NCBI GenBank assembly: GCA_015485455.1
Contig: WFTN01000114.1
Coordinates: 1 to 11,979, forward strand
Direction: 5' to 3'
Source: Planctomycetota bacterium
Lineage (GTDB): Bacteria; Planctomycetota; GCA-002687715; DRQF01
DNA length: 11,979 bases
In this document: positions 3,271 through 11,979 of the stretch, piece by piece
Layout of the letters: each line of letters starts with the position of its first letter
Numbering within the stretch: position 1 is the stretch's first letter
Program-made: the position numbers and the translations under genes
Notes under the pieces: model-generated
What the model saw: the letters and a program-made list of their open reading frames with translations, nothing else
Database searches by the model: none
Told to the model about the DNA's origin: nothing

Positions 3271-3292
3271 CTATGAACAATTGTTATTGACC

Positions 3293-3297
3293 GGGAG
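3293..3297 (+). promoter_or_regulatory. Ribosome binding site that decides the kinase start
   Basis: GGGAG lies 7 bases before the TTG at 3305, a good Shine-Dalgarno spacing. The earlier in-frame TTG codons at 3281 and 3287 have no comparable motif upstream. I therefore place the start at 3305. Confidence 0.55.
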
Positions 3298-3304
3298 CGC
3301 CTCT

Positions 3305-6300
3305 TTGAGTTCACACAATTCCGACGACACCCCCCCAGAGTTTTCTACCCACGAAAACGATAAAACCGAGTTCGTTTCTCGTGAAGCCGATGCGCTGTCA
3401 GAAGGTGACTCCTCTCTCTTCAAGACCCAGGTGGGAAGCGAATTCCGCTTGGGCCCCTATCGCATCATCAAAGAACTGGGACGAGGCGGCATGGGCATTG
3501 TCTATCTGGCCGAAGACCAAGATCTCAAACGACAAGTTGCTCTCAAGGTCTTGCCGCCGACGTTCGGAACAGCACCCGCCATGTTAGCTCGATTCAAACG
3601 CGAGGCAGAAGTAGCCTCTCGCTTAGATCACCCCAATATCTGCGGCGTGCTGAGGGTCGGAGAAACCGATGGTAAGCACTGGATTGCCATGCGCCATATC
3701 GTCGGAGACGGTCTTGATGAGATGCTCCGAAGCGACGAATCGATGTCACGGTTATCCAGCTCAATCTCCAGCCGCACTGTCGGTGGTATGCCATCAGAGT
3801 TGGCAGCCAAACTCACAACACTCGAGACAGTAGCCAAAGCGCTACAAGTGGCCCACGATGCCGGCGTCGTTCATCGCGATCTCAAGCCAGGGAATATCAT
3901 CGTCAATGAACAACGGGAGCCGGTGGTTTTGGACTTCGGTTTGGCAGTCGATTTACAAGACGGAGACGGGGTCGCTTTAACTCAATCGGGCGACGTCCTG
4001 GGCACCCCTTACTACATGGCACCGGAGCAAATTCGCGGGGAAACGAATCGTGCGGACCATCGGGTCGATATCTGGGCTATGGGCGTGATGCTATTCGAAA
4101 TGGTTACGGGAATTCGGCCATTCGACGGCGCCACTCGAGATGCTCTCTACCGTTCAATCCTTGAAGACGAACCCCCTCAACTCAGAAAGTACCTCCCCCA
4201 TGCTCCCAAAGACTTACAAACAATCATTGAAACTGCCTTAGCGAAGCAAACCGAAAAACGCTACGCATCAGCTTCGGCTCTGGCGGAAGACTTGCGCGCC
4301 CTTATGGAAATCCGCCCCATCCATGCCCGGCCTGTGGGAATCGTGGAGAAAACTGTCAAGATGGCTCGACGGCGTCCCGCTTTGGCAACACTCATTTTGG
4401 CGCTGATAGTCATCCTGCCAACCATCGCCGCTCTGTTGACTTCTCGGGCGAAAGACCAAGAGAAAATCGGCGCCGCATTGGAGCAGGCCCGCACCCAAAT
4501 CAAATCAGAAGTGACCGAAGGAAGACTGAGGGCTGCCCGCTCTGCCCTAGTCGCTGGCCGGCAGATCGCCAAGGAAAGTACATGGCAATCGGACTTGGAA
4601 TCCCGCATCGCTGCCTTGGAGGACGATGAAAAGGCTCGGACGATTCTGTTAGACGACGACAGCGATCCTCAAGGGCACATGGCTGTGAAGTTCCTCAAAA
4701 ACCTCGTCAAGAGAAGGCCAGCAGACACTTCTCCTCACGTTTGGCTGGCACTGGCCTACAGCAAACAAGGTCGCCAGAACAAAGCACGAGAAGAATTAGC
4801 TAAGCTGCCCCAAGGGAAGGTTTACTTAGCCACCTTCAACCTTGATTCCGATGCCCTAGCCAAAGAAGAACCTCAGAGTCACCTGCGCGGCATGTTTGAG
4901 GTGATGCTGCTTTCTATGCGCGGTCGATCCTTGGCATCCTTGCAACGGTTAGAGCGACTTATGGAATCAGGAGCAAACCAACCAGCCCTGGCCTGGGTTG
5001 CGGCAGAGCAGGCAACGCGCATACAGGACTTCCGCGCAGCTTTGGCCTACGCCAGCAAGGCCAAGAGTCTCATGGGTGAACTCACACCACTTCAACTGGG
5101 ACGATATTCCGTGCATCTTCGACGCGCTGGGCTGACGGACTTGGCCCTCAAGAGCGCAGAAGAAGCCCATGCCAGGCTGCCCCAAAACCCCTTCCTTCGT
5201 GTCCATCTGGCAACTGCCTACGCTGATGCTGGTAAGGAAGAACAAGCGGTGGCCGCCTACAAAAGTCTGATTGCAGATGAACCCAATTTAGGCGTGGCCT
5301 ACCGCAACTATGCCAGCGTCCTTATCGAGCAAGAGGAATACCAAGCCGCCCTGTCCATCAGCAAACGATCTATCGAATTGGACAAGACCGACCCAGGTGT
5401 TTGGGTCAACCATGCCGCGGTCCAGCAAAAGCTTGGGAAAAGCAAGGAAGCCCTGGCCTCCCTCGACCAGGCGATTCGTCTACGCCCCAATTTCCCCTTT
5501 GCTATGCACAACCGAGCAACATGCCTCAAAGACCTGGGGCGCTTGGAAGAAGCAAAAGATGCGGCACAAGCAGCCCTCAAACTGAAGCCAGACTATCCTG
5601 AATGCCACTACACCTTGGGTGCAATCTACTTGGCACAAGGAAAAGACGCCGAGGGTTTATCGGCGTTCGAAAAGGCCGCGGAACTCCAACCTTCACTGTC
5701 CATCGTACATGAAGGTATTGGCACGATTCACCTCAGGGCGAATCGATTCGCCAAAGCTCTGACTTCCTACCAAGCGGCCCTCAAGAGCAATCCAACAGCC
5801 CACATGGCATGGGTTCATTTGACACTGGTTTACGAGGGTTTAGGCGATCTCCCAAAAGCCCTTGAAGCTGGAAAGCAAGCCATCATTTTTTATCCCACAG
5901 ACATCCAAGCCAATCTGAACTATGGTTCGGCTCTCATTCACGCTCAGCAGTTGGATGAAGCGATCCATGTCTTCCAGAACCTCTTAGATGTGGCCCCAAA
6001 GGAAGACCGCATCTTCTTGATGTTGGCGACTTTGCTGGCGGCCAAGGACACACCCATGGCCACCGGATTCCTGCTTTGCCTTGAAGGAAGAAAGAGCCCC
6101 TTCTTCCAGCACATTCAGCAATTCACCGAGCCTTTGGTCGCCGGAACTGCCGGCCAAAGCGAAGATCACATCCTGATCCAAGTCTGCCAATTACGCTCCG
6201 AGATCGGCTCGAAGAAACTAAGTGAAGAACAGTCGAAAAGACTGAAGGAGCTAGCTGAACGTTTCGAGACCCTGCCAAAAGGCAAGACGAGTCCCGAACG

Positions 6301-6523
6301 AGCCAGCAATTTGGCGGCGGCTTACACGTTGGCACGACTTCTCGAACAAGAGAGTGCTTGGCCAGGAGAAACGTCCTCGTCGTTGAAAAAGCTCTTAAGC
6401 CAAGAGATTGCTGACCGAGACGCCGCATGGAAGCAATCAGCAGCTGAGATCAAAGAGAACCGTGACCAAGCCGCCCGGAAGATTCGTCAGAGCGCAGGAG
6501 TGCCAGGGAGCAAGCCATCTTAG
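3305..6523 (+). CDS. Transmembrane Ser/Thr protein kinase with C-terminal TPR array
   Basis: This is a PknB-type (Hanks) kinase fused to a TPR tail, 1072 residues from the TTG at 3305. All catalytic elements are present: glycine loop GRGGMG (59-64), ATP-anchoring K81, helix-C E100, HRDLKPGN (190-197) with catalytic D192, DFG (210-212) and APE (239-241), so it should be active. A serine-rich insert (about 143-158, eight serines in 16 residues) sits after the hinge. One membrane segment (about 358-378) follows the basic stretch KMARRR. The positive-inside rule therefore puts the kinase in the cytoplasm and the TPR part outside. Looser TPR-like helices lie at about 475-595, then eight contiguous 34-residue TPR units at 627-898, then a charged helical tail. 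The partner or ligand is unknown. It is flanked by a terminator upstream and a convergent gene downstream, so it is probably monocistronic. Similar kinase-TPR proteins are frequent in Planctomycetota. Confidence 0.9.
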   Translation: MSSHNSDDTPPEFSTHENDKTEFVSREADALSEGDSSLFKTQVGSEFRLGPYRIIKELGRGGMGIVYLAEDQDLKRQVALKVLPPTFGTAPAMLARFKREAEVASRLDHPNICGVLRVGETDGKHWIAMRHIVGDGLDEMLRSDESMSRLSSSISSRTVGGMPSELAAKLTTLETVAKALQVAHDAGVVHRDLKPGNIIVNEQREPVVLDFGLAVDLQDGDGVALTQSGDVLGTPYYMAPEQIRGETNRADHRVDIWAMGVMLFEMVTGIRPFDGATRDALYRSILEDEPPQLRKYLPHAPKDLQTIIETALAKQTEKRYASASALAEDLRALMEIRPIHARPVGIVEKTVKMARRRPALATLILALIVILPTIAALLTSRAKDQEKIGAALEQARTQIKSEVTEGRLRAARSALVAGRQIAKESTWQSDLESRIAALEDDEKARTILLDDDSDPQGHMAVKFLKNLVKRRPADTSPHVWLALAYSKQGRQNKAREELAKLPQGKVYLATFNLDSDALAKEEPQSHLRGMFEVMLLSMRGRSLASLQRLERLMESGANQPALAWVAAEQATRIQDFRAALAYASKAKSLMGELTPLQLGRYSVHLRRAGLTDLALKSAEEAHARLPQNPFLRVHLATAYADAGKEEQAVAAYKSLIADEPNLGVAYRNYASVLIEQEEYQAALSISKRSIELDKTDPGVWVNHAAVQQKLGKSKEALASLDQAIRLRPNFPFAMHNRATCLKDLGRLEEAKDAAQAALKLKPDYPECHYTLGAIYLAQGKDAEGLSAFEKAAELQPSLSIVHEGIGTIHLRANRFAKALTSYQAALKSNPTAHMAWVHLTLVYEGLGDLPKALEAGKQAIIFYPTDIQANLNYGSALIHAQQLDEAIHVFQNLLDVAPKEDRIFLMLATLLAAKDTPMATGFLLCLEGRKSPFFQHIQQFTEPLVAGTAGQSEDHILIQVCQLRSEIGSKKLSEEQSKRLKELAERFETLPKGKTSPERASNLAAAYTLARLLEQESAWPGETSSSLKKLLSQEIADRDAAWKQSAAEIKENRDQAARKIRQSAGVPGSKPS
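5183..5998 (+). repeat. Eight tandem TPR units encoded without gaps
   Basis: Eight units of exactly 102 bases (34 codons) run end to end inside the kinase gene, with no insertions or deletions between them. Most units end in a proline, as in IADEP, IRLRP, LKLKP, AELQP and KSNP. Each unit carries the usual small residues of helix A and the alanine of helix B (for example KEALASLDQAIRLRP). The units differ clearly in sequence, so this is an old protein-level repeat and not a recent DNA duplication. Confidence 0.85.
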
Positions 6524-6734: not shown

Positions 6735-7319
6735 TTAGGGTCGGCGAAGTAAGGAAATGCAGCCGTCCATCCGGCTTCGTAGTTCTTCAATGTCATTGTG
6801 GGCCTTGGCGAACATCAAACAGCCTTCGACGTAGGCCATGATCCGTTTGGCACCCTCTTCCGGGTCTACAGCGTCTTCGATTTTGAACTCGGCAATCAGC
6901 TCTTTCACCAAGATGGCCATCCCCGAACAACTATGCTGCATCAACTGGTTGACGTGTTCACCCATACTGGCGTCAGCTTGAGCCACCTCCAAGGCAATGT
7001 TTCCCAGCAAACAACCATGGATATTGTCTGGATCTTCAGCAAGTTCCTGATTTGCCGCCAAGAAAGACTCACAGATGAGATCCAACTTCTCGCGAGCCGA
7101 AACTGGGGTGGCCAACACATGCATCTGCTTCTCGGCCATCAGCATCGAGTAATGGGTGAGGGCCTCTCGGGCTAAAGAGACCTTGGATGGAAAGAAGTGA
7201 TAAAAGGTTCCTTTGTTCACTTCCGCCTCCTGGCAGATCTCCTTGGTGCCCACAGCGGAAAACCCCTTCCGGTAGAAGAGCTTTGTGGCCGCAGCAATCA
7301 ATCGTTCTTTGCTACTCAT
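6735..7319 (-). CDS. TetR/AcrR-family transcriptional repressor of the adjacent MMPL operon
   Basis: This is a 194-residue one-component regulator with an N-terminal DNA-binding domain and a C-terminal ligand and dimer domain. The helix-turn-helix is at about 24-43 (GTKEICQEAEVNKGTFYHFF), and the family signature TFYHFFPSK is clear. The C-terminal half contains HGCLLGN (101-107), a motif resembling the NemR/AcuR-type ligand domain, and six cysteines in all (29, 83, 103, 131, 167, 187). The frame extends to a GTG at 7346, but the ATG at 7319 has GGGAG 8 bases upstream and begins just before the helix-turn-helix, so I chose it. It is divergent from the MMPL gene, with operator-like palindromes between them. 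That arrangement implies repression of both itself and the exporter operon until a ligand, probably a substrate of the pump, binds. The ligand cannot be read from the sequence. Confidence 0.92.
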   Translation of the reverse strand: MSSKERLIAAATKLFYRKGFSAVGTKEICQEAEVNKGTFYHFFPSKVSLAREALTHYSMLMAEKQMHVLATPVSAREKLDLICESFLAANQELAEDPDNIHGCLLGNIALEVAQADASMGEHVNQLMQHSCSGMAILVKELIAEFKIEDAVDPEEGAKRIMAYVEGCLMFAKAHNDIEELRSRMDGCISLLRRP

Positions 7320-7327
7320 ACCGAAGG

Positions 7328-7332
7328 CTCCC
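7328..7332 (-). promoter_or_regulatory. Ribosome binding site of tetR
   Basis: On the minus strand GGGAG lies 8 bases before the ATG whose first base is 7319. This favours that start over the longer GTG start at 7346, which would place the site inside the coding region. Confidence 0.6.
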
Positions 7333-7362
7333 GGAAATCTTTCCACTATTTAGGCCAGACTC

Positions 7363-7379
7363 TTGACTGACCGGTCAGT
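7363..7379. promoter_or_regulatory. Operator-like palindrome O1 at the tetR promoter
   Basis: ACTGACCGGTCAGT (7366-7379) is a perfect 14-bp palindrome of the kind often bound by TetR-family dimers. Read from 7363 it also contains TTGAC-N4-CGGTCA, which recurs at 7491-7505. It covers the predicted start of tetR transcription near 7380, a position suited to autorepression. Confidence 0.7.
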
Positions 7380-7386
7380 TGGCACT

Positions 7387-7415
7387 ATTGTCCGTCGTGC
7401 TGAAGATGCTGTCCA
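7387..7415 (-). promoter_or_regulatory. Candidate tetR promoter
   Basis: On the minus strand TGGACA (7415-7410, five of six matches to TTGACA) is followed after 17 bases by GACAAT (7392-7387, four of six matches to TATAAT). Transcription would start near 7380, at the edge of the palindrome O1, with a leader of about 60 bases before the ATG at 7319. Confidence 0.45.
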
Positions 7416-7425
7416 ACCAAGGCAC

Positions 7426-7444
7426 TGAGGTCTCGTGGACCACA
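7426..7444. promoter_or_regulatory. Possible third inverted repeat in the divergent control region
   Basis: GGTC (7429-7432) and GACC (7438-7441) flank a 5-base centre. TG and CA add two further outer pairs, separated from the core by one A-A mismatch. The half-sites have the opposite orientation to those in O1 and O2 (GACC then GGTC), so this may be unrelated or chance. Confidence 0.2.
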
Positions 7445-7489
7445 AAGCGCGCGAGGTTGGGCGCCGCAGCGCACATTTATTAACAAATC

Positions 7490-7507
7490 CTTGACCACTC
7501 GGTCAAG
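7490..7507. promoter_or_regulatory. Operator-like inverted repeat O2 over the MMPL promoter
   Basis: CTTGACC (7490-7496) and GGTCAAG (7501-7507) are perfect inverted arms around ACTC. The site shares TTGAC-N4-CGGTCA with O1, 128 bases away and in the same orientation. It overlaps the predicted -35 box and spacer of the exporter promoter, so a bound repressor should block RNA polymerase. Confidence 0.7.
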
Positions 7508-7521
7508 ACGACGAAAATAAG
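7491..7521 (+). promoter_or_regulatory. Candidate promoter of the MMPL operon
   Basis: TTGACC (7491-7496, five of six matches) is a good -35 box. The -10 is poor: AATAAG (7516-7521, four of six) at a 19-base spacing, or AAAATA (7514-7519) at 17. A weak -10 is compatible with a regulated promoter. The -35 lies inside operator O2. Confidence 0.45.
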
Positions 7522-7547
7522 AACCGGCCAAGAGAAGAGGCTCAACC

Positions 7548-10500
7548 ATGTCTGACGGAAATCCGTCCCTCATTGCGGCAAGATTCACCTATCGCTACCG
7601 TTTCGTCACCAGCATTTTTGTCCTGGCTCTTGTCATTGGCTTCTTCGCCAGGGGTGCTGCCACTGTCAGCAGTTTCGATGAGGGCTTGACTCGCATTGGG
7701 GATGTCTCCAACGGACTGAAGGAGCAACCCCCAACCGTCTTTGATTCGCGCATGGATATCTGGTTCGACGAGGCAGATCCTGCGGTTGGCACCTACAATC
7801 AAATCGAAGATCGCTTCGTATCAGAAGATTTCGTCATGGTGGCTTTCAAAGAGGATGATCACCCTTTCGGAGTCTTTAGCCCCAATTCCCTGTCTGCCAT
7901 TGCCCGACTCTCCCAACAATTCATGACGATTCCTGGGGTGAGACATGTTCGCAGCCTCACCGTCAATCCTTGGATTCGCTGGGGCAGAATCGAAGACGAT
8001 ACCGGGGCAGAAGATGGTCTCATTATTTCTGACCTCTTCGAAGGGGATCCCCTCGGCTACAGCCGTCACGATGTCATCGAACGCATGATTGCCGTACTCG
8101 GCGCTTCTCGAACCGCTAAGAAAGTCGGAAAGGCCGCAGTGCTGGAGGTCCTCGGAGAACAAGCCAACTTCGATGACTACATCGGCGAGCCCAGGCTCCT
8201 GGGCACGATCATCAATGAGAGTGGCACGGTGGCAGCCATCCAATTGCAGATTCGTCGACCCAAAGACGCATCCGCTGGGGTGGACATACCCGAACTCATG
8301 AGCCATGAGCTTGCGTCCAACCTGTACTCGACAAAATTTCAACAGGCGGCTCTTCGAGGCATCGCACATTTCTTGCGCCTTGAGGCGGGGACGGCCCCAC
8401 CGACAGCCGAGCGCGCAGGTTTGCAAGATTGGATCAACAGCCTCGAACCCGGTGAAAAGAAAAAGGCACTTCTGTTTGAACTGAACGATCCAACCCGCAA
8501 TTTCATGGTGGATGAGCATGGCAATAACCGCCGTAAATTTCACGCCTATGACCCCGATGGCACGGGAGGTTGGATCGACCGCACAGACCCGAGCAACCCT
8601 GAAGTGGCCCCCCCTGACTTCAAGCCCAGCCCTCTCAGCACCTATCAATATCGCGTTGGAGGGGTCCCTACTTTCGAGCTAAATTTCGAAGACGTAGGTA
8701 TGTCTGATGCGAAGTTCATCCCCCTGATGTTTCTGGTCATCGCCGTCTCCCTACTCATCGTCTTTCGAAAGGTCGTGGGAGTTCTTGCACCCCTAGCTGT
8801 GGTGTTCGGCTCCATCTTCGGCATGGTTGGTTTTTCGCTTTCTCAAGGAAACCTCTTCAATAACCTGACAATGATCGCTCCAAACATGGTGACTGCCGTC
8901 GGCATCGCGGATGCCATTCATTTGGTCGCTGCTTGGATGGCCCTCAGATCAAAATACGAATACAAGAGCGATCTAATCATTGAAGTCATGAGTAAGAATG
9001 CCCTCCCCGTACTCCTCACGTCCATCACAACGGCCATTGGCTTCTTCTCTTTGACAGTTAGTACGATTCTCCCCGTGAGGATGCTTGGCACTATCGCCGG
9101 CTTGGGAACTCTTTTCGCCTACCTGCTATCCATGTCTATCGTCCCAGCAATTCTTTCATTGGTCCCCCACAAGAACCCCAAACAAAAGAAACCATCAGGC
9201 ATGACCACCTTCTTTTCAGAAGAGCGGGCCACAAAGCTCGTCACATTTCTGATTGGAAAGCGGAAACAGATACTTGCGTTCTCGAGCATCGTCATCGTTG
9301 TTTCACTTGTCGGAGTTTCTCGGATCGAAATCGATTCCGACTTTCGTGGCATGTTCCCGGATGACAACAAGGTCATGTCAGAATTCACCTGGATCGAGAA
9401 TCACCTGGGGGGCGTGGGGGATCTTGAAATCGTCTTCGAAGCGCCGAGATCCCAAAGAACCCTGGCGGATCTCAGCGACGACGAGCGCCAAGAGTTAGAG
9501 GACCTCAAGTTAAGAGCAGCTCTATCGGCCCAGGGTGAGTCCAAGAATCTGTCTGACGGAGAACAAAAAGAACTCGCTCTGCTCACCTCGAAAGAAGAAG
9601 ACATCAATCGTGGCCGGATTGGTGTGGACCCCACTTTTCTGGGGGCTGTTGCAGCATTCGAGGATCGCCTAAGGTCTGAGTCAAAGAAAGAAGGTTCACC
9701 CGTTCGCATACTCACCGACCTCATCAGTCCCCTCGACGTTCTGAGGAAGATGCACCAAGTTCAAAACGAAAATAGGGCGGCGGCCTATCGCGTCCCCAAT
9801 GAATCTGACGTTCAAGAAGAAGCTCGTCAACCCAGGCTTAGCTATGATGAATGGACCGAAGAATGGCAACTAACTCCAGCCCAAACTGGCTCGAACCTCA
9901 TTGCACAATATTACCTGCAATATGAAAACGGGGCCAAGCCTGGCGAGAACCTCTCGACCCAACTCAGTGGCAATCGTACCCACTTTCGAATGCAGGGGCG
10001 CCTACTTCAAGCGCCAACTCTCACTCTTCTCGCCGCCTTCAATCGTATTCGAGAGATCGCTTTCGATGAGTTCCCCCTACTCACAACAACTCTGCATCTG
10101 GATGGCGACGAAATACCGCATTCCGCTGACATGACTTTGTCGGGGAAAATGCTTCTCAATGCTCGCACTATGGATGTCTTCTCCAAGGGGTTCTTGACCT
10201 CCATGTCCATCGCACTCATGGCCATCACAATCCTCATCGCCATCATTTTCCGGTCATTGCGCTTGGCGGTGATTAGCATCGTGCCCAACATTCTGCCCAT
10301 CGCAATTCCCTTGAGTTTCTTTGGTATCTTCGGCGTTGCCCTCCATGGTCCAGCTATCCTCGTCTCTTCCATTGCCTTAGGAGTTTGCGTTGATGATACG
10401 ATCCACTTCTTCACACAATTCGCTCGGGGTAAGAAACAGGGACTGAGCAACCGCCATGCCTTGGTGCGCATGTTTCAGGAAAGCGGAACCGCCGTCGTCC

Positions 10501-10724
10501 TTACTTCGATCGTGCTCATGTTAGGTTTCTGCTCTTTGGCCTTGTCCGAATTTACTCCCAACAAGATCATGGGATATTTGGCAGTTGGTATGATTGGCTT
10601 GGCACTCATAGCAGACCTAATCGTGGCCCCGGTTCTTTTGAGCCTATTGCCGGAGAAGGACTCACAGGCCGACGAGATCGAATCAGAAAATGAAACAAAG
10701 AATGCGACTCTTCAACACGTCTAA
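7548..10724 (+). CDS. MMPL/RND-superfamily inner-membrane transporter
   Basis: This is a 1058-residue transporter, probably proton-driven, with the twofold RND layout. TM1 is at about 19-38, followed by a large periplasmic domain (about 40-388). TM2-6 are at about 390-407, 411-430, 446-464, 486-506 and 513-539. TM7 is at about 574-591, followed by a second periplasmic domain (about 592-880). TM8-12 are at about 882-901, 905-929, 935-957, 981-999 and 1007-1034. Acidic residues inside the fourth helix of each half, D455 (GIADAIH) and D949-D950 (GVCVDDTIHFF), fit the proton-relay position. This form resembles the MMPL/HpnN-like lipid exporters more than the drug pumps of the AcrB type. Unusual inserts lie at about 275-362 and 636-690. 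AGAGG (7536-7540), 7 bases before the ATG, is the ribosome binding site. It is followed 12 bases later by a LolA-like gene. The cargo is probably lipidic, but this is inferred. Confidence 0.92.
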   Translation: MSDGNPSLIAARFTYRYRFVTSIFVLALVIGFFARGAATVSSFDEGLTRIGDVSNGLKEQPPTVFDSRMDIWFDEADPAVGTYNQIEDRFVSEDFVMVAFKEDDHPFGVFSPNSLSAIARLSQQFMTIPGVRHVRSLTVNPWIRWGRIEDDTGAEDGLIISDLFEGDPLGYSRHDVIERMIAVLGASRTAKKVGKAAVLEVLGEQANFDDYIGEPRLLGTIINESGTVAAIQLQIRRPKDASAGVDIPELMSHELASNLYSTKFQQAALRGIAHFLRLEAGTAPPTAERAGLQDWINSLEPGEKKKALLFELNDPTRNFMVDEHGNNRRKFHAYDPDGTGGWIDRTDPSNPEVAPPDFKPSPLSTYQYRVGGVPTFELNFEDVGMSDAKFIPLMFLVIAVSLLIVFRKVVGVLAPLAVVFGSIFGMVGFSLSQGNLFNNLTMIAPNMVTAVGIADAIHLVAAWMALRSKYEYKSDLIIEVMSKNALPVLLTSITTAIGFFSLTVSTILPVRMLGTIAGLGTLFAYLLSMSIVPAILSLVPHKNPKQKKPSGMTTFFSEERATKLVTFLIGKRKQILAFSSIVIVVSLVGVSRIEIDSDFRGMFPDDNKVMSEFTWIENHLGGVGDLEIVFEAPRSQRTLADLSDDERQELEDLKLRAALSAQGESKNLSDGEQKELALLTSKEEDINRGRIGVDPTFLGAVAAFEDRLRSESKKEGSPVRILTDLISPLDVLRKMHQVQNENRAAAYRVPNESDVQEEARQPRLSYDEWTEEWQLTPAQTGSNLIAQYYLQYENGAKPGENLSTQLSGNRTHFRMQGRLLQAPTLTLLAAFNRIREIAFDEFPLLTTTLHLDGDEIPHSADMTLSGKMLLNARTMDVFSKGFLTSMSIALMAITILIAIIFRSLRLAVISIVPNILPIAIPLSFFGIFGVALHGPAILVSSIALGVCVDDTIHFFTQFARGKKQGLSNRHALVRMFQESGTAVVLTSIVLMLGFCSLALSEFTPNKIMGYLAVGMIGLALIADLIVAPVLLSLLPEKDSQADEIESENETKNATLQHV

Positions 10725-10736
10725 GGACCAATAACA

Positions 10737-11651
10737 ATGAGACATCAATCAAGAACACTCCTTTGGGTAGTCATGGCCTTCGTTCTGTCCCATTCCGTGA
10801 GTCTAGGGCAGCAAGTAAAGAAAGAGCAAAAGGCAGTCAACAAGTCGGGGGTGCCCTTCCCCAAGACTCCAACCTTCTCAACTGAAGAACCGGCAGTTTA
10901 CGGCAAACAGTTGGCAAAATTCGCTGACCTTTACGAGCAAGGCTGGGTGGACGAAGTTTCTCGAGGTCGCATGACACTGACGGATGCCGGAGGCGATTCT
11001 GTCAAAAGAACGTTTTCTCGTCGAAGCCTGGAAGGAGCTGTTAAGGGCGACAAATTCCTCATTGGCTTTCTTTCCCCCAGCGAGATCAAAGGTGTCAAGG
11101 CGCTCACGTTTGAAAACCCAGGAAGCTCTGACGACAACTGGCTCTACTTACCATCAAACAAACGTGTTCGGCGCATCTCTGGTGCCAATAATACGGCAAG
11201 TTTCCAAGGCACGGAGTTTACCTATGAAGACTTGGTGAACTTGGACTACCGCGAGTTCAAATGGCGTTTCCTCAAGAACGACACTATCACGCGAGGCAGG
11301 AAGAAGCTGGAGGTGTTCAAGTTAGACGCCGTTCCCACCTATGCAGATACCGGCTATTCTCATATCCACGTCTATCTGAACCGCAAGACATGGCGTCAAG
11401 AACGAGTCGACTACTTCAACTTGGCTGGCCAACATCTCAAAACCAAAGACAATCGTGACTGGAAACTCAAGCACGGACGATTCTGGCGGGCAACCACAAT
11501 CGAAATGGCAAACCTACGCAGCAAAAAAACAACCCTCCTGACTCTTGATCGCTTCTTTGTCAATCTTTCTCTCTACACCAGCCGCAAAACGAAGAAGCCC
11601 CGGAAGAACCTGACGGCAGCAGCCTTCACCAAGCGAGCTCTTGCGCGATGA
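10737..11651 (+). CDS. Exported LolA-like protein (outer membrane lipoprotein-sorting family)
   Basis: This 304-residue exported protein has a signal peptide whose hydrophobic core is residues 8-22, with likely cleavage after SLG (24), no lipobox and no later membrane helix, so it is periplasmic. The mature part carries features of the LolA-like family often encoded next to MMPL transporters: NWLYLPSNKRVRRI (134-147), GTEFTYEDL (158-166), a run of alternating hydrophobic strands, and the ending FTKRALAR (297-304). The family fold is an open beta half-barrel that shields lipid or acyl chains, so it is a candidate periplasmic carrier for the transporter's cargo. The basic insert SRKTKKPRK (282-290) near the end seems unusual. 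AAGGA (10723-10727) overlaps the MMPL stop and serves as ribosome binding site. Its own stop overlaps the next ATG. I do not claim it sorts lipoproteins as LolA does. Confidence 0.82.
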   Translation: MRHQSRTLLWVVMAFVLSHSVSLGQQVKKEQKAVNKSGVPFPKTPTFSTEEPAVYGKQLAKFADLYEQGWVDEVSRGRMTLTDAGGDSVKRTFSRRSLEGAVKGDKFLIGFLSPSEIKGVKALTFENPGSSDDNWLYLPSNKRVRRISGANNTASFQGTEFTYEDLVNLDYREFKWRFLKNDTITRGRKKLEVFKLDAVPTYADTGYSHIHVYLNRKTWRQERVDYFNLAGQHLKTKDNRDWKLKHGRFWRATTIEMANLRSKKTTLLTLDRFFVNLSLYTSRKTKKPRKNLTAAAFTKRALAR

Positions 11652-11979
11652 ATGTGGCCTCCCAACTGCTGAAGGCTTTCTTCCTTGCGCTCTTGTGTTT
11701 CTCCCTTGGTGGTTCCATGGCCCAAGCAGCCAGCCCTCAAATTGAATCGGGAACGGAAGATGAAATGGAGCGGTTGATCGAAGGTGTTCATCTTCAAGAG
11801 GAGGCAGAAGATGAGCTCCTCGATGACGGCCTGGATGATCTCTTGGAAGGGGCAGACAACGACGGGGATGGCGAAAGCACTTCATTTCTGAGAGATTGGA
11901 AGGGCTTTGCAGAAGTCGAGTTTCGCTTCTACTTTGCCGACCGCAACCAAGGGCGAAACGACGAAGACTTGCGTTTGAA
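11648..11979 (+). CDS. Exported protein, probable outer-membrane beta-barrel (DUF1302-like), 5' part only
   Basis: The frame opens at an ATG overlapping the previous stop (ATGA) and stays open to the window edge, giving 110 codons plus 2 bases. A signal peptide with hydrophobic core at about 10-23 ends at AQA (25-27). Residues 33-76 are extremely acidic (20 Asp/Glu against one Arg) and include DNDGDGE (70-76), which resembles a calcium loop. From about 83 the sequence changes to DWKGFAEVEFRFYFADR, alternating aromatic and polar residues as in the first strands of a barrel. Third genes in MMPL/LolA-like operons are often DUF1302-type barrels, so I suggest an outer-membrane exit or receptor component. 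The barrel assignment rests on little sequence, and the 3' end lies outside the window. Confidence 0.6.
   Translation, partial: MNVASQLLKAFFLALLCFSLGGSMAQAASPQIESGTEDEMERLIEGVHLQEEAEDELLDDGLDDLLEGADNDGDGESTSFLRDWKGFAEVEFRFYFADRNQGRNDEDLRL

Follow-up and report, generated by a model that had tools for sequence, protein, structure and literature searches.

By which route does the cargo of an MMPL pump leave a bacterium with two membranes? In mycobacteria, lipids and siderophores are exported by such pumps, and a gene cassette of a planctomycete (Planctomycetota bacterium, GTDB lineage GCA-002687715; DRQF01) bears on the question of how cargo exits from them where a second membrane has to be crossed. 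In this cassette, a gene for a TetR-family repressor is read divergently from the genes of an MMPL pump, a LolA-like periplasmic carrier and a probable outer-membrane barrel (Table 1). The stretch analysed, hereafter the window, is one entire contig of 11,979 bases (WFTN01000114.1, C114) of the assembly GCA_015485455.1, which comprises 614 contigs and 4.13 Mb and is 77% complete. An initial annotation, made from the letters alone, had described a self-regulated export cassette with one protein for each envelope layer. The four genes, their divergent layout, the 12-base gap between the pump and carrier genes (10725-10736) and the ATGA overlap between the carrier gene and the fourth gene (11648-11651) are confirmed by the reading frames, the Pfam matches and the sequence itself, and the interpretation as a whole is partly supported.

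We consider it probable (roughly 0.6) that the cassette, under control of its repressor and driven by protons, exports a hydrophobic compound in a manner resembling the AmeABCD system of Castellaniella defragrans, whereby we infer both the direction of transport and the cargo. Being compact and equipped with a carrier of its own and a probable barrel, it is a handy unit for testing if a shuttle of LolA type can take the place of the duct formed by a fusion protein.

Table 1 Features of the cassette in the window
Feature	Position	Strand	Remarks
TetR-family repressor (TetR_N + TetR_C_13)	6735..7346	-	Pfam TetR_N 2.5e-15, TetR_C_13 8e-10
Operator-like palindrome O1, TTGACT-GACC-GGTCAG	7363..7380	.	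holds -35-like hexamer of a plus-strand promoter candidate; adjoins -10-like hexamer of a TetR promoter candidate
Operator-like palindrome O2, TTGACC-N4-GGTCAA	7490..7507 (pattern at 7491)	.	holds -35-like hexamer of a second plus-strand promoter candidate
MMPL/RND (HAE3-like) inner-membrane pump, 1058 aa	7548..10724	+	Pfam MMPL 9.8e-25
LolA-like periplasmic carrier, 304 aa	10737..11651	+	PF17131 9.4e-36
Fourth gene, first 110 of the 488 residues of a probable outer-membrane barrel related to DUF1302	11648..11979	+	cut by contig end

A co-conserved set of genes

The cassette is real, co-conserved and more than a chance neighbourhood. One scan of genome contigs for the LolA-like protein yielded 30 loci, in 27 of which script-built profiles matched an MMPL pump, a LolA-like protein and a barrel together; among these 27, the contig end cuts the pump in L022 and L038 and the barrel in L028. 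The incomplete loci are L044, which is without a barrel match, and L046 and L048, which are without an MMPL match (in L046, the preceding gene is that of a CHASE2 cyclase). Strong orthologues of all three structural proteins were found in the same four of 216 Planctomycetota genomes, namely the window's own (G000), G001, G030 and G037, at thresholds set after the scores had been seen: at least 302 bits for the LolA-like protein (next score 130), at least 578 for the barrel (next 57) and at least 962 for the pump (next 117). The co-occurrence of the three structural families, on which the initial annotation had made its proposal depend, is thus borne out. Including these four, weaker matches were present in 32 of the 216 genomes for the LolA-like protein, 20 for the barrel and 7 for the pump at 1e-30, with at most 7 or 3 candidates scored per genome, depending on the search; the surveyed genomes are incomplete and their absences are no proof. 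The distribution is patchy, since a LolA-like or barrel match is present in none of the ten further genomes that belong to the window's family or order (completeness 76-97%).

Outside the Planctomycetota, three gammaproteobacterial loci (Agaribacter, Exilibacterium and an Alteromonadaceae bacterium) share 40-53% identity with the window over the three proteins and group together in trees of 20 loci. Pairwise distances of the three proteins correlate with r 0.85-0.93 among 14 close loci and 0.97-0.98 among 20 loci (19 of the 30 plus the window), values reached in none of 2000 permutations and uncorrected for species relatedness; such correlations are what would be expected of genes travelling together. 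In G001, a genome of the same genus, the stretch with the cassette (L011) is contained letter for letter in locus L020.

The set is kept even where its order is shuffled, as in L021 (LolA-barrel-MMPL) and L034 (TetR last). Tandem MMPL genes precede the LolA-like gene and the barrel in L040, L043 and L045, which suggests a paired pump, and in L028, the MMPL and LolA-like parts are joined in one frame of 1336 residues with a signal-like segment in between. This last locus (L028:8-4637) starts with a glutathione S-transferase gene, possibly encoding a detoxification enzyme, followed by the fused frame, a form resembling TOL_3187 of Thalassolituus oleivorans (see below), and the beginning of the barrel gene.

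The fourth gene and the end of the operon

The fragment of 110 residues encoded at the right end of the window gave no Pfam match up to E 0.01. A profile of 14 related barrels (A1; best 7999 candidates scored, 92 database matches) returned a protein of 488 residues, P0028, which is identical to the window frame in 110 of 110 residues and whose residues 121-488 are encoded at 100% identity, from the second base onwards, on another contig of the same assembly (C94, L052:2-1105). The DUF1302-type gene that the initial annotation had anticipated beyond the contig end thus appears, judging by sequence, as a gene for a DUF1302-related protein. Behind it, C94 carries on the opposite strand what reads as a putative phoU-pstBACS cluster, with genes for PhoU, an ABC ATPase, two permeases and a binding protein. 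Because these convergent genes come next, the operon ends with the barrel gene, and the claim of a self-contained cassette holds.

The protein looks like a relative, not a member, of DUF1302 (PF06980), with a predicted barrel fold. Among 83 aligned barrel relatives (A4, consisting of 63 of the 92 database matches and 20 loci, and omitting the duplicates L011 and L013, further L021-L024, L041, L049 and L035, the start of which is miscalled), 24 match DUF1302 and 40 the Wzi barrel at E up to 0.1. The profile of the close clade finds the intermediates L036, L037 and L039 within this set at 6.5e-17 to 3e-21, L039 itself matching DUF1302 at 6.5e-12, and within a set of 17 proteins it finds annotated DUF1302 proteins of Prevotella nigrescens (3.9e-12) and Haliovirga abyssi (8.3e-8); that it did not list the barrels of L040-L048 directly counts against the link. 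Outer-membrane barrels tend to end in Phe or Tyr, as do 27 of 29 barrel rows, the others being L025, which ends in Arg, and L013, which is cut. The signal sequence is weaker evidence, because starts were chosen in favour of a hydrophobic N-terminus.

The pump

Membership of the pump in the MMPL family (PF03176) is clear, with 87.6 bits against a cut-off of 20.5 and two matching stretches that cover both halves. The HAE3 subfamily profile (TIGR00921) gives 153.3 bits and stays under its NCBIfam cut-off of 351.9. HpnN, BstA and the MmpL proteins are likewise RND proteins of MMPL type, and MmpL4, HpnN, MmpL5 and MmpL3 are among the best solved chains found with the profile of 26 pumps from 24 sources (A5; omitted were the cut pumps of L022 and L038, the fused one of L028, those of L041 and L049 and the second pump of L045). 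The profiles of HpnN (TIGR03480, 89.5 bits; NF052374, 41.3 bits) and of the BstA sterol transporter (NF045600, 34.6 bits), however, match the window pump far below their cut-offs of 751.85, 1100 and 1400, respectively, and a pair of PF17131 protein and barrel is not known to belong to the definition of these systems.

Asp949, His458 and His953 are conserved in 26 of the 26 aligned pumps and Asp455 in 19. Intramembrane Asp residues are the proton-coupling feature of the MMPL/RND superfamily, and the four residues are consistent with proton coupling, judged by family membership. The two periplasmic domains of the window pump comprise 348 and 284 residues, compared with 263-364 and 280-291 in 14 close pumps and only 190-263 and 177-204 in 12 distant ones. 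Since the first domain measures merely 263-277 residues in the close pumps of L026, L029 and L031, its enlargement is not clade-wide. About 200 residues in total, chiefly 182-211, 279-333, 338-364 and 640-693, lie in segments that occur in half or more of the close pumps and in less than a quarter of the distant ones. It is conceivable, though we would call the idea doubtful, that the Planctomycetota and Gammaproteobacteria share a separate clade of RND machines, in which the extra residues (chiefly 279-364 and 640-693) form a dock passing cargo straight to a dedicated, soluble carrier of LolA type and from there to a private barrel, so that a shuttle would stand in for the duct of fusion protein and TolC.

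The carrier and the absence of linked duct components

The LolA-like protein scores 123.6 bits against PF17131 (gathering cut-off 30), partially matches DUF1329 (27.7 bits, cut-off 23.1) and has solved relatives in 3bk5, 9tp6 and 4z48. Another search for LolA-like proteins gave 307 matches, 120 of which were listed. By eye, its signal sequence is without a Cys. Pump and carrier fit the envelope layers that the initial annotation had assigned to them; the barrel, its third element, has been completed in sequence and is predicted in fold.

Both Pfam and the record annotation label the carrier an outer membrane lipoprotein-sorting protein, and taken at its name it would act as a chaperone of the Lol pathway. 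We consider this role very improbable and have rejected it: the partner of the protein is an RND pump, its partial match is to DUF1329, the patchy distribution ill suits an essential role, and no Lol ABC transporter or LolB was matched among the seven window and eight C94 proteins scanned (hereafter the scanned proteins). Nor was a fusion protein, TolC or a lipid-synthesis family found among the scanned proteins, which accordingly contain no adjacent HlyD-type fusion protein with TolC, as would be seen in a tripartite RND-MFP-TolC pump. The initial annotation had proposed that the route does without a fusion protein and TolC; for the neighbourhood this stands, whereas 14 TolC-type matches elsewhere in the genome mean that an unlinked TolC may serve the cassette.

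Regulation

The longer frame of the repressor opens with a GTG at 7346, but its TetR_N match sets in only at residue 16, which makes the ATG at 7319 the more likely start. Between the divergent genes, the pattern TTGACY-N4-GGTCAR matches four times with both strands counted, against 0.46 expected, and three promoter candidates stand against 0.2 expected. The sister locus L020 contains TTGACC-GTGC-GGTCAA ahead of its pump gene. Allowing for one mismatch, the pattern occurs at 24 places in the assembly, compared with 11 for a reversed control. These operator-like sites over promoter-like hexamers fit a dedicated, self-repressing regulator and render the self-regulation proposed initially plausible at the local level; they would also permit a ligand screen, which could identify the cargo.

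Of exact O2 sites, the assembly holds two. The second lies in an open frame of 563 residues, which by eye reads as a cation exchanger; we took this single further site for chance and rejected a regulon outside the cassette.

A TetR match is present in 16 of the 30 loci. The close loci (L020-L034) number 15, ten of them with a TetR match; each of these ten repressors matches TetR_N as well as TetR_C_13, with TetR_C_13 staying below cut-off in L026, L029 and L031. In more distant planctomycetes, the window operator was not found and other palindromes occur (by eye and without a shuffle control). Upstream of the pump in L025, L026 and L029, the palindrome halves resemble CCTACC/GGTAGG, not TTGACC/GGTCAA, as if the TetR operator had changed between lineages. 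Two gammaproteobacterial copies of the cassette without a TetR match adjoin genes of other regulators, an HxlR-type one after L027 (L027:10232-10594) and an AraC-type one before L033 (L033:3413-4489), which by position may be candidate regulators.

Relation to known systems

The initial annotation had regarded the arrangement as undescribed. This cannot be upheld, as cassettes of the same kind are already known: AmeABCD, PG1178-1181 of Porphyromonas gingivalis, TOL_3187/3188 of T. oleivorans and the annotated sets of Prevotella and Haliovirga. What is new are the enlargement of the pump by roughly 200 periplasmic residues, a barrel under the Pfam thresholds and the spread over Planctomycetota and Gammaproteobacteria.

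AmeABCD consists of a DUF1302 protein, a protein of the DUF1329/LolA superfamily, a COG4447 protein and an HAE3 pump, and confers monoterpene tolerance (PMC6394551). It shares with the window cassette the combination of an HAE3/MMPL-type pump with a periplasmic protein of the LolA superfamily and an outer-membrane protein, which belongs to DUF1302 in Ame and is a putative DUF1302 relative in the window. Compared by description only, it differs in its additional periplasmic protein AmeC (COG4447), in the size of AmeB (a DUF1329 protein of 451 residues, against 304 in the window carrier) and in its position in a monoterpene island, whereas the window cassette has a divergent TetR gene and a pump with enlarged periplasmic domains. 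The complete combination of DUF1302, DUF1329, COG4447/BNR and HAE3 pump does not occur in the window cassette; no BNR-type (AmeC-like) match was obtained among the scanned proteins, and one PF14870 match lies elsewhere in the genome. In Pseudomonas putida, a DUF1302 protein, a DUF1329 protein, a periplasmic protein and a pump have been linked by a Tween 20 phenotype and by co-folding (PMC10866462).

In T. oleivorans, TOL_3187 unites MMPL and LolA-like parts in one protein and is followed by TOL_3188, a predicted porin without conserved domain, just as in L028; this pair, again compared by description only, differs by the fusion and by an expression tied to a long-chain alkane (PMC6304351). The operons of P. 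gingivalis (PG1178-PG1181, compared by description) and Prevotella contain TetR, MMPL and LolA-like genes and then a further gene, which in P. nigrescens is annotated as DUF1302 and is the one found by our close-clade barrel profile; the pump there has 805 residues. According to the record annotation, MMPL, LolA-like and DUF1302 genes are adjacent in Prevotella and Haliovirga. In PG1178-PG1181, unlike in the window, the TetR gene is described as lying inside the operon, ABC transporters adjoin and expression is induced by iron or hemin shortage (PMC10434189, PMC10470040). PG1177-1181 have been named a putative transport system (PMC13227078), and PG1178, PG1180 and PG1181 are up in a PG_0686 mutant (PMC10101095). 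The aryl polyene clusters also combine an RND pump with a LolA-like carrier; their third part is a LolB-like DUF3261 protein instead of a barrel, and the genes lie within a biosynthetic cluster. No DUF3261 LolB-like protein was matched among the scanned proteins. In the literature covered, outside which most subscription papers and bioRxiv preprints lie, we found neither a cargo test of an MMPL-PF17131-barrel set nor a paper with both DUF1302 and MMPL.

Cargo and direction of transport

Taken together, the parts might operate as follows. The TetR_C_13 repressor would sit on the two palindromes over the divergent promoters, repressing its own gene and the operon, until a small hydrophobic or amphiphilic ligand frees it. 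From the inner membrane, the pump would extract either this compound or a lipid, raising it to the periplasmic head of the pump by proton antiport through the intramembrane Asp residues, as its family would suggest. The soluble LolA-like protein would receive the cargo and, as its fold family implies, ferry it over the periplasm to the DUF1302-related barrel, which would presumably hand it to the outer membrane or the medium. Like the direction of export, the lipid cargo named in the initial annotation is inferred.

Carriage in the opposite direction, by which hydrophobic nutrients or stray lipids would be taken up or retrieved, or their assimilation aided, appears improbable. On C28 alkane, TOL_3187 is up 42-fold and TOL_3188 was detected solely under this condition (PMC6304351), PP_0765, PP_0766, PP_2018 and PP_2019 of P. 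putida are required on Tween 20 (PMC10866462), and in P. gingivalis, iron shortage raises the expression of PG1175-1181, and hemin shortage that of the TetR, MMPL and LolA-like genes and of the one after them (PMC10434189, PMC10470040). Induction by a substrate, however, equally fits the export of a toxic excess. Moreover, most RND pumps that have been characterised are exporters. A mutant lacking ameABCD tolerated monoterpenes less well and accumulated slightly more Nile Red in one condition, namely in CCCP-treated, limonene-grown cells (PMC6394551), which also speaks for export.

The main rival is a less remote one, and we hold it to be possible but rather unlikely: the cassette would move a special lipid of the cell's own, such as a hopanoid, a polyketide lipid or a modified phospholipid, from the inner to the outer membrane, as is thought for HpnN, BstA and ApeLMN. 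HpnN and MmpL proteins, which figure among the best solved relatives of the pump, move lipids. ApeL, ApeM and ApeN are a LolA-like, an RND and a LolB-like protein (PMC8253772). On a Sulfitobacter plasmid (L075:1-6726), a type I polyketide synthase gene stands directly before the MMPL-LolA pair, which hints at an export of polyketide lipids by some relatives; the MMPL and LolA-like genes of Leisingera lie among biosynthesis genes, and an acyltransferase gene is found ahead of the pump in L035. Against this stand the lack of a lipid-synthesis gene among the scanned proteins, the low scores of the HpnN and BstA profiles, the empty result in all ten genomes of the same family or order, which would be unexpected for a housekeeping lipid route, and the differing neighbouring regulators, which suggest conditional use. 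The flanks vary as well, with IMPDH and GMP synthase near L027, TatC near L032, and ferredoxin oxidoreductase, kinase, PhoU and ABC-transporter genes in the window genome; with flanks and regulators both varied, an accessory unit therefore suits better than a fixed biosynthetic route.

Regulated export of a hydrophobic compound, which we prefer, also has to be held against a number of observations that weigh against it. The best NCBIfam match and nearest named relative of the repressor, AcuR, reaches 67.5 bits, far under its cut-off of 247. The count of four operator patterns was reached in 3 of 200 shuffles, a figure that is flattered, the pattern having been drawn from the window itself. The full barrel P0028 had no Pfam or NCBIfam match up to E 0.1, DUF1302 included, and the barrel alignment had no match to PDB sequences up to E 1; an hhalign comparison of close with DUF1302-type barrels gave E 2.7e-4 at a probability of just 42%, and a simple strand-pattern count, 14 against 12.7 for shuffled sequences, does not separate the barrel from them (116 of 300 reach 14). 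Regarding the comparison with AmeABCD, a counterpart of AmeC is absent among the scanned neighbours, and acetate-grown wild type and ameABCD mutant showed similar dye uptake (PMC6394551). The Sulfitobacter relatives beside a polyketide synthase favour an endogenous lipid there. Because no cargo gene is linked to the cassette, detoxification stays only the best guess.

Genomic surroundings

No Rfam families or tandem repeats were found in the window. On C94, further on from the ABC-transporter genes, follow a redoxin-like gene (L052:5596-6723), apparently split in two frames, and a gene for a protein matching AHSA1/Polyketide_cyc2. To the left of the cassette, the Pfam matches indicate two subunits of a 2-oxoacid:ferredoxin oxidoreductase and, beside them at 3281-6523, a Ser/Thr protein kinase fused to a long array of TPR repeats, a fusion that is ordinary in planctomycetes.

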